From the IMG/VR virus record IMGVR_UViG_3300048109_000122, positions 1 to 26,517 of that record: a DNA stretch of 26,517 bases; one strand, written 5' to 3'. The stretch is from a virus. A program made the position numbers and the translations under genes. Within the stretch, counting starts at the first letter, position 1. Every line of letters begins with the position of its first letter. This document shows, piece by piece, positions 2,319 through 10,780 of the stretch. The notes beneath the pieces were generated by a model. The model saw only the letters and a program-made list of their open reading frames with translations. It ran no database searches and had not been told where the DNA came from.

Positions 2319-3297
2319 GGCTTTTTATTAGGCTTGTCCACTCTTGGGTGCGTAAATCCCAATTATAAAACGTATTAAAATAGTTGGTTTGCATACGCAA
2401 CATCTTTTGCGTACTTTCATTTCGATAGCTTGCAATAGCTTGATACAATACATTCACAAACAAATTTGCATGGTCCATTCGATTTTCATTGAAGCCATAC
2501 ATGAATGCAAAATTCGCACATGTTTCAGGTAGTGCCGCATAGTTTGGGGCTACCGTCAAACATCCAGCTGCCAACGCTTCAATAGCTGCGATACATGACG
2601 TTTCTTGCCAAACACTAGGGTATGCAAAGATATGGGCATTCTCAAGAGCATCTCGAATCTCATCATTGGATACAGTGCCATGATAAGTAATTCCAGGATG
2701 CTGCCTGCATCTTTCGTATAGACTTTCGAATGGTTTGTTTCTATCGCCCCAACCATAAATATCAAAATTAGAGTATACATGAAAATGTATGTCTTGTCTA
2801 ATCTTATAAATTTCTTCGAATGCCGCTACAGCAATATCCAACCCTCTATGTGGTGTTGTATGATATATGATATTTATCACATCTTTAGGTTTCTCATGTG
2901 CAGAGAATGGTTTGATTGCATTCTTTAATACAACCCCCTCTGAATAGGGAATGCCTAAATGTTGGTTGTATTGTTGCTGTTGCCAGTTTGATACAAATAC
3001 AAGTTTAGAGAAACGACTTCGACTCTTTACATCTTTTAAATGAGCAGACTCTGGGTCTCCTGGTAGGTCATGAAGCCACAAAATACTGGGCTTAGACTCA
3101 TCGACTTCACGAACCCGTGAACAAATGATTTGTACTGAATCTCGAACATCTTCTGGTAGTCTATCGTATAGACCGTACTTCATCAACTCAGTACCACCCA
3201 TTGCGTTTTTGGATAGTTCATCTGTAGTTACCGCCTTTTTAGTAGGCGGCGTTTCACTACCGATTGCTCTATTTTTCGCAGAGGCAATAGTTACCAT
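2308..3297 (-). CDS. GT4-like (GT-B fold) glycosyltransferase
   Basis: The 329-residue protein resembles group-1 glycosyltransferases. The C-terminal nucleotide-sugar domain is clear: NIIYHTTPHRGLDIAVAAF (near residue 145), HVYSNFDIYGWGD, YHGTVSNDEIRDAL, then the family EX7E signature in QETSCIAAIEALAAG, followed by GCLTVAP. The N-terminal part contains NAMGGTELMKYGLYDRL, a GGTE segment that often lies near the acceptor site in this family. The likely role is transfer of a sugar to phage DNA, a virion protein or a host surface glycan; the substrate cannot be read from the sequence. Its ATG overlaps the stop of the preceding gene (TAATG at 3297), indicating translational coupling. It is cytoplasmic, with no membrane segment. 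Confidence 0.85.
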   Translation of the reverse strand: MVTIASAKNRAIGSETPPTKKAVTTDELSKNAMGGTELMKYGLYDRLPEDVRDSVQIICSRVREVDESKPSILWLHDLPGDPESAHLKDVKSRSRFSKLVFVSNWQQQQYNQHLGIPYSEGVVLKNAIKPFSAHEKPKDVINIIYHTTPHRGLDIAVAAFEEIYKIRQDIHFHVYSNFDIYGWGDRNKPFESLYERCRQHPGITYHGTVSNDEIRDALENAHIFAYPSVWQETSCIAAIEALAAGCLTVAPNYAALPETCANFAFMYGFNENRMDHANLFVNVLYQAIASYRNESTQKMLRMQTNYFNTFYNWDLRTQEWTSLIKSLDK

Positions 3298-4496: not shown

Positions 4497-4970
4497 TCAA
4501 TTAAATATATTCAATATACCAGACTTACCAGACTCTACTTGTTGAGCCTCTACGTCTTGCTTAACATTATCTAAGGTTTCATTAGCTTTGTCAAGGGCAT
4601 CTTGGGATTTTTCATAGTAATTTTTGTAAGCAATAATGATTGCTTGTTGTTGCTGAATATATGAACGAATTGCACTAAAGTTTACACTTATATTCTCATA
4701 ACCTTTATCAGTTAGTGCGAATAGCGCAACTGGTCTTCCATCGGATTTTAATCTTTCAAAAACTTCTTCATAGTTGTCCTCATTAATAACAATCCACTCA
4801 AAGTCTTTAAGAGCAAGTTCATCCGCATCGGGAAGAATCAACTTAGGTCGTTCAATTGGTGTAGCAGAAACTTCTATACGCTTAGTAGTTGAAGAACACC
4901 CACTAAGGAGTGCTATCACCAGGCCAAAGCCAAGGACATTCGCTATTAAATTCGTTCGCATTTTTCGCAT
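4497..4970 (-). CDS. Outer-membrane lipoprotein, probable o-spanin (Rz1-like)
   Basis: The start is ATG 4970 (MRKMRTNLIANV), preceded by AGAGAG at 8 nt. It gives a lipoprotein signal with lipobox LLSGC and Cys25. The gene begins inside the 3' end of the i-spanin gene in another frame (68-bp overlap), the classic Rz/Rz1 arrangement. The mature part (about 132 aa) is longer than a typical Rz1: a segment with prolines (ATPIERPKLILPDADEL) precedes a small globular region (about 55-105) and a C-terminal coiled-coil-like helix (YYEKSQDALDKANETLDNVKQD). Known o-spanins join the i-spanin across the periplasm to fuse the membranes in the last step of lysis. The long domain is atypical, so the assignment rests chiefly on context and lipobox. 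Confidence 0.68.
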   Translation of the reverse strand: MRKMRTNLIANVLGFGLVIALLSGCSSTTKRIEVSATPIERPKLILPDADELALKDFEWIVINEDNYEEVFERLKSDGRPVALFALTDKGYENISVNFSAIRSYIQQQQAIIIAYKNYYEKSQDALDKANETLDNVKQDVEAQQVESGKSGILNIFN

Positions 4971-5368: not shown

Positions 5369-6241
5369 CTACCCTAAAAGTTCGCCAAATGTGGCAGGAC
5401 CAGCAATACCGTCTGCTGTTAAACCATTTGCTGCTTGCCATTCTTTCAAAGCACGTTCTGTGCCTGGACCAAAATCGCCATCAGCAGTAATACCTAAAGC
5501 TTCTTGCATAATCTTTACGCCTTCGCCTTTAGAGCCTTTACGCAGTACACCAATATCATCTAAGATTTCTGCAACATCGTCATCGTCAGCTGCTAAATCT
5601 TCAGCTTCCATACCGAGCACTTTCATTGCATGAACATACCGCTTTTGTCGGTCTTCTAGTCCAATCGAACCACCATTGATTTTCTTGGTCATGCGCTTAA
5701 CGTCATCGCCGTCTGCAATGTCGTTTAGGTTGTTTGTGTCCCAGAACCAGCAAGCTGACTCAATAGCACCTGCTGGAGTTGCTACATATTCTGCTGCTTC
5801 TTCTGCTGTCATACCAACACTCTTGCCAAAGGCAGTATAGTTATGACGACCAGTAAGTTGCTTCAAGCCACGACCACGGAAACGCCAACCATCGCCTTCT
5901 TCTACATTGCCCATTTTATACTTACGGAATTCGTCCATGTAAACGTAGTTGGCAATCTTCGATGCCTGTCGGTGATACTCGTTTGCATCACGCTTTGGTG
6001 GTGGACCGAAGTAACGCCCAAACACTGCACGGAGTGCTTTTGCTGAATAGTTTAGATTTTCTTCTAGACGTTTAAAGCCTGCACTCTCATGGGCACATTG
6101 GCTTAAGAAATGCGCTACCCTACGTTCTGTAGTAATACCGTATTTTGGCAGTAGTTTGCATAGTGCGTCATACCAGTTGTCAGCATCGTCTGAAATAATT
6201 TCAGCTAGATGCTCTTTTGTGAAGTCAAATTCAAAACTCAT
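5369..6241 (-). CDS. Endolysin: GH19 chitinase-like domain plus peptidoglycan-binding domain
   Basis: The 290-residue enzyme has an N-terminal GH19 lysozyme-like domain (about 1-210). The catalytic region is QCAHESAGFKRLEENLNYS, with likely catalytic glutamates E52 and E60/E61; further signature pieces are WRFRGRGLKQLTGRHNY and the ACWFWDTNNLN segment. The C-terminus (about 228-288) is a PG_binding_1 repeat: LRKGSKGEGVKIMQEALG...DGDFGPGTERALKEWQ...DGIAGPAT. It should cleave the glycan strands of host peptidoglycan at lysis. There is no signal peptide, so export would need the holin. AAGGAT precedes the ATG. The next genes downstream encode the spanins. It is longer than single-domain phage GH19 lysins because of the binding domain. 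Confidence 0.93.
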   Translation of the reverse strand: MSFEFDFTKEHLAEIISDDADNWYDALCKLLPKYGITTERRVAHFLSQCAHESAGFKRLEENLNYSAKALRAVFGRYFGPPPKRDANEYHRQASKIANYVYMDEFRKYKMGNVEEGDGWRFRGRGLKQLTGRHNYTAFGKSVGMTAEEAAEYVATPAGAIESACWFWDTNNLNDIADGDDVKRMTKKINGGSIGLEDRQKRYVHAMKVLGMEAEDLAADDDDVAEILDDIGVLRKGSKGEGVKIMQEALGITADGDFGPGTERALKEWQAANGLTADGIAGPATFGELLG

Positions 6242-6261: not shown

Positions 6262-6480
6262 CTAGTCTTCGCAATCATTAGTAATTGCCTCAACTCGCAA
6301 TACATAGTTGAACCCAAGCATATGGGTAAAATCGGTAAGAATAGATTCTAACTCTTCTAAATTTGGAGCATTTAGAATGTTACATCGTTTAGTAAATTCC
6401 CGAACTTCTTCTTCTCCAGTCACACTATTATATATAGTATGAGAAAAATTAATTACACTATGCTCATCTTTATAATTCAT
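6262..6480 (-). CDS. Hypothetical protein, 72 aa
   Basis: The start is ATG 6480 (MNYKDEHSVINFSHTIYNS), preceded by CGGAGATAG; the stop of the upstream gene lies 4 nt before. It is an acidic soluble protein with an alternating beta-type N-terminus, the segment EVREFTKRCNILNAPNLEELESILTD-like (described by its ends, EVREF to ILTD), and the C-terminus ITNDCED. No motif is recognised. It is co-transcribed with the gene at 6484-6849 and lies just ahead of the endolysin. Confidence 0.65.
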   Translation of the reverse strand: MNYKDEHSVINFSHTIYNSVTGEEEVREFTKRCNILNAPNLEELESILTDFTHMLGFNYVLRVEAITNDCED

Positions 6481-6483
6481 CAA

Positions 6484-6849
6484 CTATCTCCGTTTTCCTG
6501 TCATAGGGTCAGCAACTTCTGCTTTAGACAGCACTTGAATTCCGCCCTTGTTATATGCTTGACCGATTACATATTGAGAAGAAACTTTCTCTTTATATGT
6601 AGTGTCTGATTTTGGAGCGTTTCCGATACCATTCCCTAGAGATGGAATGTATTCCGTCTCTCTTCGATTGTCTTCTCGTGGAATGTATGGAGTGAATTCT
6701 TTCTTTTTTGATGGCTTTTTATCTGGGTCAATTCCCAATGCAATTAGGCGTTTTTTATGAGCGGCTTCACGCTCTTTCCACCCGGGCTTCTTTTTAGCCT
6801 TACGCTTTTTTGTGCTATTTGTTGTGTAATATGCTGGCATCAAAGGCAT
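6484..6849 (-). CDS. Conserved hypothetical basic protein, 121 aa
   Basis: The start is ATG 6849 (MPLMPAYYTTNSTKKRK), with GGAG 8 nt upstream; a TTG further up would lie against the tmRNA 3' region and is rejected. The protein is Lys-rich at residues 11-65 (STKKRKAKKKPGWKEREA and KKPSKKKEF) and then has the segment YIPREDNRRETEYIPSLGNG, followed by SSQYVIGQAYNKGG and a basic C-terminus (MTGKRR). The basic, probably disordered N-terminus suggests nucleic-acid or ribosome contact, but no function is known. It follows directly behind the tmRNA and would be co-transcribed from the same late promoter. Confidence 0.72.
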   Translation of the reverse strand: MPLMPAYYTTNSTKKRKAKKKPGWKEREAAHKKRLIALGIDPDKKPSKKKEFTPYIPREDNRRETEYIPSLGNGIGNAPKSDTTYKEKVSSQYVIGQAYNKGGIQVLSKAEVADPMTGKRR

Positions 6850-6899
6850 ACTAGTATCTCCATAATATAATTTTGGGATACAACTTTTCTGTTCCAAGG

Positions 6900-7167
6900 C
6901 AAGTTGCCAGCCCGTCAGATTATGCTGCTAGAGCGTAATCAGAAGGAGCAAAGTTATCGTTTGCATTTAGTTTAGTTGGCATATTCGCTGCCACCCGACT
7001 AACTCCACGCATCTATCCTGTCTGTCGATTCCTAATTCAGCCCCATCAAAAACACACTACCCGCTTTATCAGATACGTTCCAGACTTAACTGGAATAGTG
7101 TGCTTTTGGTGGAGCTGTCGGGATTCGCACCCGAGTCCAGTCCAGTCGTCAAATTGCTTCAACGTTA
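6900..7167 (-). ncRNA. ssrA: Permuted two-piece tmRNA (alpha type)
   Basis: On the minus strand the 3' acceptor half comes first: a T arm TCGGG-TGCGAAT-CCCGA and then CAGCTCCACCA, ending at 7107. After an intervening segment (7106-7045) that forms a long extended stem and a TTCCAG/CTGGAA hairpin comes the 5' half, starting GGGGCTG at 7044. GGGGCTG and CAGCTCC pair in a 7-bp acceptor stem with G3-U70, the alanine identity pair. The tag frame at 6964-6920 reads GCA...TAA and encodes ANDNFAPSDYALAA. A GGCA/TGCC stem-loop precedes the tag in the pseudoknot position, and AGTTAGTCG (7004-6996) can pair with CGACTGGACT (7148-7139) as a P2-like helix between the two pieces. Outer ends are approximate. 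Confidence 0.93.
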
Positions 7168-7173
7168 GTTCTT

Positions 7174-7181
7174 TATTTATA
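7174..7181 (-). promoter_or_regulatory. T4-like late promoter for the tmRNA
   Basis: A perfect TATAAATA, the T4 late promoter consensus read by a gp55/gp33-type sigma system, lies on the minus strand. The expected start, about 6-7 nt downstream near 7167, coincides with the plausible 5' end of the tmRNA acceptor piece. Confidence 0.72.
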
Positions 7182-7184
7182 TCA

Positions 7185-7274
7185 CTAAGCGATTTGTGAT
7201 ATAGATAAAATCATCACAGAGAGTGTTACAACTCCAAGTATAGACATTAATACATTCTCGCTACAATTATTCAT
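7185..7274 (-). CDS. Tiny hydrophobic peptide, 29 aa
   Basis: ATG 7274 is preceded by GGAG at 5 nt, a good ribosome site. The product MNNCSENVLMSILGVVTLSV...ISQIA is a short polar N-terminus and one hydrophobic helix (about residues 8-27) of membrane type. Its stop is followed at once by the late promoter of the tmRNA. It may be a small phage membrane peptide; the only support is the ribosome site, an intact frame and hydrophobicity. Confidence 0.45.
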   Translation of the reverse strand: MNNCSENVLMSILGVVTLSVMILSISQIA

Positions 7275-7300
7275 ACAATCTCCGAATTGTAATATGGGTA

Positions 7301-7323
7301 AGTTGTTACCTCAAGTAACAACT
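7301..7323. other. 9-bp inverted repeat
   Basis: AGTTGTTAC and GTAACAACT flank a 5-nt loop. On the minus strand it lies between the PD-(D/E)XK-like gene and the tiny membrane ORF. It lacks a T-run, so it may be an RNA stability or processing hairpin instead of an intrinsic terminator. Confidence 0.4.
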
Positions 7324-7344
7324 GTATATATCATTTTCGAGAGT

Positions 7345-7827
7345 TTAACTAGGTAAGCTTCCTAGGTATGTAAAGTTATCTTTAACTACTTCAAGCTTAA
7401 ACAAGTAGTTCCAACTATTAGAGCCAGGGTCTCCGCCACAAACTTCTCTAAACCAAGACTGTTCTACAAAGCACATATCTTTTAGCTTTTTCGTTGGTAT
7501 CAAATACAAAGACTTTATACCAGAAGGTTCATGGATTTTATACAAATAGAAGTTGGCTTTCGAAACTTGAATGCCAGAATCACGACCCCAACTTTCATAC
7601 TCTACACCAACGTTTCCAGTTCGTTGACAGCTGAAGTCTTCTTTAATCTCAATAGTAACTTCTTTTTCGCCTTGGGCTTTAGGCAACCTAACCTTAATAT
7701 CATAGTCGGAATTATTGCACATATGAACAAGTTTAACGTTCTTAGTTTCTAGATAATCCGCAATCTGCCGCTCTGTCTTGTTTGCGATAGGCAAATCTTT
7801 TTTAAAGTCGTAGTTTGGGGTATGCAT
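7345..7827 (-). CDS. PD-(D/E)XK nuclease-like protein, 160 aa
   Basis: The arrangement fits a small PD-(D/E)XK nuclease fold: a helix with conserved-type Glu (KTERQIADYLETKNV, E19), then D41/D43 in SDYDIKV, then a beta strand with the E-x-K signature (TIEIKED, E60 and K62), then a strand/helix pair (GNVGVEYESWGRDSGIQVS, followed by KANFYLY). The last region resembles the segment where such enzymes inspect DNA. No family can be named. A role in phage DNA repair, recombination or host-DNA degradation is plausible (inference). The start has CGGAG 8 nt upstream. It is the last gene of the small-gene operon that begins at the promoter at 8020-8048. Confidence 0.6.
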   Translation of the reverse strand: MHTPNYDFKKDLPIANKTERQIADYLETKNVKLVHMCNNSDYDIKVRLPKAQGEKEVTIEIKEDFSCQRTGNVGVEYESWGRDSGIQVSKANFYLYKIHEPSGIKSLYLIPTKKLKDMCFVEQSWFREVCGGDPGSNSWNYLFKLEVVKDNFTYLGSLPS

Positions 7828-7839
7828 AAATTTCTCCGA

Positions 7840-7986
7840 TTAGTTGTATGCTATAATAGCACCATCTTCAAAAACCATTGCCAAATCTTCACACTTATCA
7901 AATACAGCCATAACAGCTTCTTTACTATCAAAGTAGGTATCAACTTGCTCATATGCACGAACTATCCGAAGAAGATATGTTTTCAT
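7840..7986 (-). CDS. Hypothetical protein, 48 aa
   Basis: The start is ATG 7986 (MKTYLLRIVRAYEQVDTYF). A reading from 8031 is rejected because that ATG lies in the spacer of a strong promoter and would not be in the RNA. AAGAGAAAACT precedes the ATG. The protein has a beta-type start followed by an acidic helix (DSKEAVMAVFDKCEDLAMVFE); no motif is recognised. It is the first gene behind the early promoter at 8020-8048. Confidence 0.62.
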   Translation of the reverse strand: MKTYLLRIVRAYEQVDTYFDSKEAVMAVFDKCEDLAMVFEDGAIIAYN

Positions 7987-10093: not shown

Positions 10094-10122
10094 ATTATAG
10101 CAGTAACCTCACTATTTGTCAA
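10094..10122 (-). promoter_or_regulatory. Perfect-consensus early promoter
   Basis: Minus strand: TTGACA (10122-10117), 17-bp spacer, TATAAT (10099-10094), i.e. 12/12 consensus. The -35 overlaps the clpP stop region. The predicted start near 10087-10090 falls within the ribosome site of the gene at 10078. Confidence 0.88.
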
Positions 10123-10780
10123 GAGATTTTTTTCTGCGAGTTGCTGGTTTCTTTTTAGGTTTGGCTTGTGGCTTTTCTACAACTTCTTCGACAGTTTCTT
10201 CATCTTGCTTTACGATAGCACCCATACGCTTGATTCGCTCTAATACTTCATCACCATCAAGCCACAAATCTTTGTTGTTTAGTACACTATCAATTTCTTC
10301 TTCTGACAAGAAGTCTTTGTATACTTTATGTAAGAGATTATCAGACCACTTACGCTCATATACAATATTATCATACATCTCACCACCTTTGCCGATAGTG
10401 CCGCCAGAGTAATTGTGAATCATAAACATAGAATGTTCTGAAATCTCAAAGACGCTTGCTTGTAAGAAAATCATCGTTGCTGCCGACATACAAGCACCTT
10501 CAATGCTTGCAACAACAGTAGCTTCAGTCTCTTGCAATACTCGCATAAACTGAACTGCAGTCAGTAAATCACCGCCATGAGAGTTGATAATCAATCTAAT
10601 TACATCATGCTCTCCAGAATTTCGAATAATCTCAAACCAGTGAATGTAATTGTCCGGCGATTTAATATCACCAGAAATATAGAAAGTGTGAATTGACCCA
10701 ATTGGTCGATTTGGGAAGTAATCTCTTTTTGGTCCAGAGAAAATATCTAATTCGTTAATCAAACTTAATTCTTGATTCAT
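10112..10780 (-). CDS. clpP: ClpP-like serine peptidase with Lys-rich tail
   Basis: The 222-residue protein has the ClpP fold: INSHGGDLLTAVQFMRVL, nucleophile region EGACMSAATMIF (Ser99), FMIHNYSGG (His122), and Asp171 in NNKDLWLDGDEV. It should be a cytoplasmic peptidase subunit (S14). A ClpP needs an AAA+ partner, and none is encoded in this window, so it would use host ClpX/ClpA or act alone, as proposed for phage prohead-type ClpP proteins. The last 30 residues are an unusual Glu/Lys/Pro-rich tail (KPQAKPKKKPATRRKKSLDK). Its ATG overlaps the stop of the RuvC-like gene (TAATG). Confidence 0.88.
   Translation of the reverse strand: MNQELSLINELDIFSGPKRDYFPNRPIGSIHTFYISGDIKSPDNYIHWFEIIRNSGEHDVIRLIINSHGGDLLTAVQFMRVLQETEATVVASIEGACMSAATMIFLQASVFEISEHSMFMIHNYSGGTIGKGGEMYDNIVYERKWSDNLLHKVYKDFLSEEEIDSVLNNKDLWLDGDEVLERIKRMGAIVKQDEETVEEVVEKPQAKPKKKPATRRKKSLDK

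Follow-up and report, generated by a model that had tools for sequence, protein, structure and literature searches.

The window, a 26.5-kb viral fragment, encodes the large and small subunits of ribonucleotide reductase (RNR), ThyX, a T4-type primase and a RuvC-like resolvase, together with a chitinase-like endolysin, a ClpP-like protease and a glycosyltransferase. It also carries genes for tRNA-Leu, tRNA-Cys and tRNA-Arg (ARAGORN). The phrog_455 protein of the window is 49–52% identical to its counterparts in Melnitz and phage C48C1 and approximately 40% identical to those in cyanophages and pelagiphage HTVC008M, and the nearest viral contigs found share approximately 55% identity at the protein level. 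With its phrog_455 protein, primase, RNR and ThyX, the window is a phage contig with T4-like genes, a trait expected of a Melnitz-type phage tmRNA.

On the minus strand, at about 7169–6881, lies a permuted two-piece tmRNA gene. ARAGORN calls a tmRNA* at complement(6829–7199) with the tag peptide ANDNFAPSDYALAA, and the Rfam model of permuted tmRNA (RF04321, tmRNA_permuted) matches at 100.5 bits (E 9e-19; cut-off 47). The alphaproteobacterial model (RF01849, alpha_tmRNA) scores 74 bits against a cut-off of 50 and is the best fit among the clade-specific models. The CCA-ending acceptor half lies upstream of the GGGG half on the same strand, the acceptor stem has 7 bp including G3–U70 and is accompanied by a T arm, and the tag frame runs open from a resume codon through the peptide, with its hydrophobic -AA end, to a TAA stop (Table 1). 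The initial annotation had read these same features from the sequence: a phage two-piece tmRNA with its CCA half before its GGGGCTG half on one strand (minus, which it did not name), a 7-bp acceptor stem with G3–U70 and a tag frame. This reading is borne out by the T4-type genes on the contig, by both kinds of search that it had named as checks (covariance models, of which the permuted and alpha models exceed their cut-offs, and ARAGORN), and by the G–U pair, which is invariant in 81 of 81 phage relatives. The span it gave, 6900–7167, is correct to approximately 20–30 nt; the gene also includes the 3' pseudoknot, which reaches approximately 6881, just outside this span.

Table 1. Features of the tmRNA locus and its immediate surroundings (window coordinates).
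Feature	Position	Strand	Evidence or remark
Candidate promoter element, octamer TATAAATA (T4-late-type or extended -10)	7174..7181	-	75 nt before CCA end
Acceptor piece (5' part of gene)	7107..7169	-	ARAGORN, Rfam, sequence, covariation
Acceptor-piece P2 strands	ACUAAC 7169-7164; CUG-GA-CUG 7145-7138	-	
T arm	7134-7118	-	
Acceptor 3' strand CAGCTCC	7117-7111	-	
A73; CCA	7110; 7109-7107	-	
Intervening segment, 62 nt, CCA to GGGG	7106-7045	-	sequence and comparison set
Conserved three-way-junction RNA element	7047..7108	-	comparison, covariation, fold
Element outer stem, 13 bp	7108-7096/7059-7047	-	
Element hairpin P2	7094-7090/7083-7079	-	
Element hairpin P3; invariant loop CUGAUAA	7077-7062; 7072-7066	-	
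Coding piece	6881..7044	-	ARAGORN, Rfam, sequence, covariation
GGGGCUG, 5' end of coding piece	7044-7038	-	
Coding-piece P2 partner strands	7024-7018 and 7003-6998	-	
PK1-like hairpin	6993-6977	-	
Tag reading frame GCA...TAA, peptide ANDNFAPSDYALAA	6964-6920	-	
3' pseudoknot	6881..6913	-	covariation
Pseudoknot stem CAACUU/AAGUUG	6906-6901/6886-6881	-	
Pseudoknot knot GGGC/GCCU	6913-6910/6900-6897	-	
Next gene downstream, co-directional with tmRNA	6484..6849	-	ATG at 6849 after GGAG

The octamer upstream of the acceptor piece is a feature of the phage genes: it precedes the end of the CCA by 73–80 nt in 44 of 80 phage tmRNAs, and does so in none of 40 host genes and in 2% of shuffles. A TTGACA-like -35 box lies 16–18 nt upstream of the octamer in 39 of these 44 relatives, so the octamer was rejected as a purely late promoter. 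In the window only three of the six -35 positions match, and the promoter assignment is uncertain there because a good -35 box is missing. The next gene downstream gave no family match. Approximately 3 kb upstream of the tmRNA, at 10112–10780 on the minus strand, lies the gene for the ClpP-like protease (phrog_1827, PF00574), which has GxxxSAA and MIHN motifs and would be an attractive candidate for degrading tagged products. A general coupling of ClpP and tmRNA was considered and rejected, as a strong family match occurs in only 3 of approximately 14 large tmRNA-bearing viral contigs.

By analogy with other permuted tmRNAs, the segment between CCA and GGGG should be absent from the mature molecule and would be expected to be discarded. 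In the window this segment harbors a conserved RNA element that folds as a three-way junction. It is the most unusual feature of the locus, and its conservation escaped the initial annotation. A 43-nt match (95% identity) links it to the Roseobacter podophage CRP-143, and the core GGAACGTATCTGATAAAGC recurs in nine other viral stretches, each time precisely in the gap that separates the CCA from the GGGG of a permuted tmRNA. With the variants added by a looser search, 15 phage tmRNAs besides that of the window carry the element. Their segments are 76–98% identical to that of the window, whereas their tmRNA bodies share only 59–81% identity overall (acceptor pieces 64–81%, coding pieces 59–76%); in other phage pairs, taken for comparison, identity is approximately 50% for the segments and 65% for the bodies. 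The element folds more stably than its shuffles (z -5.85), and the three-way junction was recovered both by RNAalifold and by hand. Across the carriers (the 15 phage tmRNAs and CRP-143), 98.2% of cells are paired and nine pairs show double-sided changes; none of 500 shuffles does as well, and slid versions reach 30–52%. The inner hairpins and the loop hardly vary, partly by construction because the carriers were found by the element's own core sequence, while the outer stem covaries; this covariation and the comparison of flanks are independent of the core-based search.

In CRP-143 (L399), a phage with no tmRNA, the element lies at the end of the sequence, in an intergenic region after the terminase genes. 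A second long hairpin of similar build, TTACTCTAAA...TTTAGAGTAA, adjoins it there (3045–3105). A comparison of the element with Rfam returned no family, only a microRNA match at chance level (12.3 bits), and neither ARAGORN nor RF00005 finds a tRNA cloverleaf at normal thresholds; the hits of relaxed ARAGORN are noise, given on nearly everything, and a full tRNA was rejected. Among 96 alphaproteobacterial genomes, the element was found in none by pattern and in none by model R1, the latter search having been run without a positive control. There is presumably a likeness between the CUGAUAA loop on its short stem and the anticodon loop of tRNA-Ile(GAU), which serves as a lead only.

The content of the segment varies greatly among other phage tmRNAs and includes simple loops, several recurring structured modules, a tRNA-Arg(TCT) and ORFs. 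Close relatives can differ in it: L086 and L124 share 96.4% identity across 1.5 kb of upstream sequence and 98.4% across 0.57 kb of downstream sequence, with segments of 65 and 134 nt that are unrelated to one another, and the segment has likewise been replaced at its borders in the pairs L305/L317, L065/L114, L308/L366 and L095/L133. In L345, a complete tRNA-Arg(TCT) is nested in the intervening segment (4705–4781). Three families of segment ORFs have pN/pS values of 0.08–0.45 in frame, against mostly 0.5–3 in the other frames. A closing stem of at least 8 bp is present in 84% of 76 phage segments, compared with 5% of shuffles. Stem-closed segments are also found in the isolates Melnitz, Mosig, RcXuper, V10, Bajun, Rb1 and CcrPW, and the architecture is therefore not an artefact of metagenomes. 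The idea that the closing stem is specific to phages was rejected, because a short stem that ends in the same way (AAAA...CUUUUGAU) also occurs in the tmRNAs of Hyphomicrobiales-type hosts. As judged from these sequence comparisons, the intervening segment is a cassette site at which different passengers are exchanged among related phages.

Several further observations were made on these loci. The segments of L065, L026 and L095 hold an ORF of approximately 57 aa with a CxC...CxxC pattern, which is under purifying selection, extends into the tmRNA coding piece and has no Pfam match above cut-off. In L062, L080, L094 and L214 (Melnitz), related ORFs (YLSG/YLGG...YDGGELGST) extend from the segment into the body of the tmRNA; the Melnitz record has no CDS annotated at this position. 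In L408, an orphan cassette at 5390–5480 consists of GCCTCCACCA, framed cargo and GATG, with no tmRNA body; its cargo is the same as that of L126, and an intact tmRNA stands 480 nt upstream of it. Three further structured modules are each shared by the segments of several diverged phage tmRNAs (L087/L352; L091/L329/L331/L366; L019/L042/L047/L318). Directly downstream of permuted phage tmRNAs, L317 has a glutamine riboswitch (1903–1956, 60.1 bits) and L113 a manA RNA (1273–1446, 55.9 bits). ARAGORN also finds unannotated permuted tmRNAs in the records of Rhodobacter phage RcXuper, Ruegeria phage V10, Alcaligenes phage QDWS595, Xanthomonas phage Rb1 and Caulobacter phage CcrPW (L400, L401, L428, L430 and L431).

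The locus probably encodes a functional phage tmRNA together with a passenger RNA that would be freed when the precursor is cut and that may have a function of its own. Less probable, though to be taken seriously, is that the segment is only a processing hairpin that joins the cut sites and yields no product, its conservation reflecting recent exchange between phages. Such a hairpin would account for segments whose stem ends are kept while their insides vary, for the short versions in Hyphomicrobiales-type hosts and for the many phage segments of just 18–39 nt. It accounts poorly for inner hairpins and a loop that stay nearly constant in the window's element under a covarying outer stem, and recent exchange sits badly with the divergence of the carriers' tmRNA bodies. 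The occurrence of the element by itself in CRP-143, and the tRNA and ORFs under purifying selection in other segments, also speak for content beyond a hairpin. The passenger RNA of the window probably acts on its own, since it is found without a tmRNA in the podophage.

The same exchange could be read in another way, which we consider unlikely: the segments might be small mobile elements that reside harmlessly at the CCA...GGGG site and are carried for their own sake. The precise swaps at the segment borders of near-identical phages, the L408 cassette with its GCCTCCACCA and GATG flanks and the shared core in the unrelated podophage CRP-143 would all fit. However, the segments showed no transposase or endonuclease, the cassettes are too unlike each other to be a single element, and the swaps are explained equally well by homologous recombination between phages in the conserved flanks. 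Beyond the passenger RNA of the window, we tentatively suggest that in marine T4-like phages the segment may be a cargo bay for small RNAs, tRNAs and mini-genes that are exchanged and would be released by the tmRNA-processing enzymes, the cargo of the window being an independent RNA that acts in trans. If this holds, a loop like that of tRNA-Ile(GAU) would suit a decoy for defenses or enzymes that target tRNAs.

The descent of the tmRNA itself was compared with that of host genes. The host sets were drawn from Alphaproteobacteria; a search for betaproteobacterial hosts yielded only seemingly alphaproteobacterial tags. Two trees (122 and 141 rows), made with the tag left out, both set the phage tmRNAs apart from the host tmRNAs, although their details are not trustworthy because the alignments have only approximately 148 columns, and the hosts were sampled to a limited extent. 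In the 122-row tree, the window falls in a phage-only group of 11 (support 99/93), and four phage rows lie near hosts. In the 141-row tree, it falls in a phage-only group of 60 (support 99/95), and the 65 sampled alphaproteobacterial tmRNAs stand together with one phage row among them; constraining these 65 to one clade was not rejected (p-AU 0.64). The phage-type tag ANDNFA...YALAA occurs in none of 385 alphaproteobacterial genomes and in at least 119 viral stretches, with a spacing of 14 aa in all among the matches listed; because the scans of viral contigs used the resume and tag start GCAAACGAYAAY, the tag statistics are conditional on ANDN. A plasmid search gave no match.

On the evidence of these trees, the tmRNA of the window lies in a phage lineage distinct from the 65 sampled alphaproteobacterial tmRNAs. 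The initial annotation had proposed that the phage took the gene from an alphaproteobacterial host and uses it to keep or bias trans-translation during infection. The gene is of the alphaproteobacterial model type, and an ancient origin in that group is likely; host capture is weakened by the position of the gene in a phage lineage apart from the sampled hosts. Very improbable, in particular, is a recent capture in which the gene is essentially the ssrA of a present alphaproteobacterial host: the best clade-specific model is alphaproteobacterial and the four phage rows near hosts indicate that captures may happen, but the window groups with phages only in both trees, its tag type is missing from the 385 host genomes and the promoter octamer is missing upstream of the 40 host genes. 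That the phage tmRNA would keep or bias trans-translation during infection is plausible. The separate lineage, the phage-type tag and the fixed promoter element suggest that phages keep the tmRNA as a tool of their own.

Constraint on the tmRNA was gauged in a comparative set of more than 150 loci with permuted tmRNAs, obtained by pattern scans of viral contigs, and covariation was counted on 81 non-redundant phage tmRNAs. The acceptor stem is paired in 567 of 567 cells, partly by design because detection requires a good acceptor stem, and the T arm, also partly selected by the detection step, in 404 of 404, with double-sided changes at three pairs. In the inter-piece helix P2a, which is free of such selection, 88% of cells are paired, against 16–50% for slid versions, and each of the six pairs shows double-sided changes. 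In the 3' pseudoknot, the stem is 76% paired with double-sided changes at six of six pairs, and the knot is 92% paired. The middle P2 helix (P2b, AGAUGC/GCAAUUU) was rejected as first drawn, at 37% paired. This unconserved helix is what a decayed remnant without function might display, but a remnant is scarcely credible given that the essential parts are all intact and covarying, the tag frame is open with -ALAA and a stop, and the promoter octamer is present.

How a working tmRNA with a passenger RNA might operate can be outlined from known tmRNA biology. In general, tmRNA is processed by RNase P and tRNA 3' nucleases, is charged with alanine by virtue of its G3–U70 pair and is delivered to ribosomes with SmpB and EF-Tu, and its tag directs proteolysis through a terminal LAA. 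In the phage, transcription would begin just upstream of the acceptor piece, at TATAAATA, and yield a precursor in the order acceptor piece, intervening segment, coding piece. The 13-bp stem begins in CCA and ends three bases before GGGG, and would therefore place the two cut sites side by side. Cleavage before GGGG would fall to host RNase P and cleavage after CCA to tRNA 3'-end nucleases, and the two resulting pieces would be joined through the acceptor stem and P2 helices. With host AlaRS (recognizing G3–U70), SmpB and EF-Tu, the phage tmRNA would rescue stalled ribosomes and add ANDNFAPSDYALAA, the LAA end of which would direct the products to ClpXP-type proteases. The phage may benefit in that ribosomes and amino acids stay in circulation while mRNA is being degraded. 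The same cutting would release the segment as a separate structured RNA, possibly a stable one. Segment exchange would then offer a simple route by which small RNAs or mini-genes are carried and then set free by host tRNA-processing enzymes, and the segments supply a candidate list of phage RNAs and peptides.

A phage-encoded permuted tmRNA is not in itself new, since methylophage Melnitz (2022) and pelagiphage Mosig have published two-piece tmRNAs (PMC9004378). According to the available part of that paper, 53 of 133 unique phage tmRNAs are two-piece by ARAGORN, 50 of them from aquatic samples, and the content of the segment is not mentioned in this part. What appears to be new is the conserved RNA of the intervening segment and the exchange of cargo, on which nothing was found in the open-access literature. 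Like the window, Melnitz and Mosig have a permuted ssrA with a stem-closed segment in a T4-like (Kyanoviridae) phage, and the Melnitz tag ANDNYVPVDYALAA is of the same 14-aa type. Unlike Melnitz-type phages, the window has no match to the glutamine riboswitch (E up to 1, 6300–7900), which is itself not present in all members of the Melnitz group, and the Melnitz segment is 142 nt long with an ORF-like frame, whereas that of the window holds the three-way-junction RNA.

The alphaproteobacterial tmRNA (RF01849; Caulobacter type) shares with the window the gene order, the acceptor stem with G3–U70, the context of the resume codon, the tag frame and a 3' pseudoknot with an ACAGAA loop. In contrast to the window, the sampled alphaproteobacterial hosts have tags of mostly 9–13 aa and no TATAAATA at the fixed position, and their segments are 2–122 nt long, usually short. 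The tmRNA database paper of 2025 describes one nominally archaeal permuted tmRNA whose intervening sequence contains a tRNA-Ala, a case that it terms unique (PMC11915505). That case resembles the tRNA-Arg of L345 in having a complete tRNA within the segment; it is a single case, whereas the phages considered here have several kinds of cargo that are exchanged between relatives. The element of CRP-143 (OR420748, Autographiviridae) has the same core as that of the window, CCAGUUAAGUCUGGAACGUAUCUGAUAAAGCG, and a compensated outer stem but, unlike it, lies outside any tmRNA.
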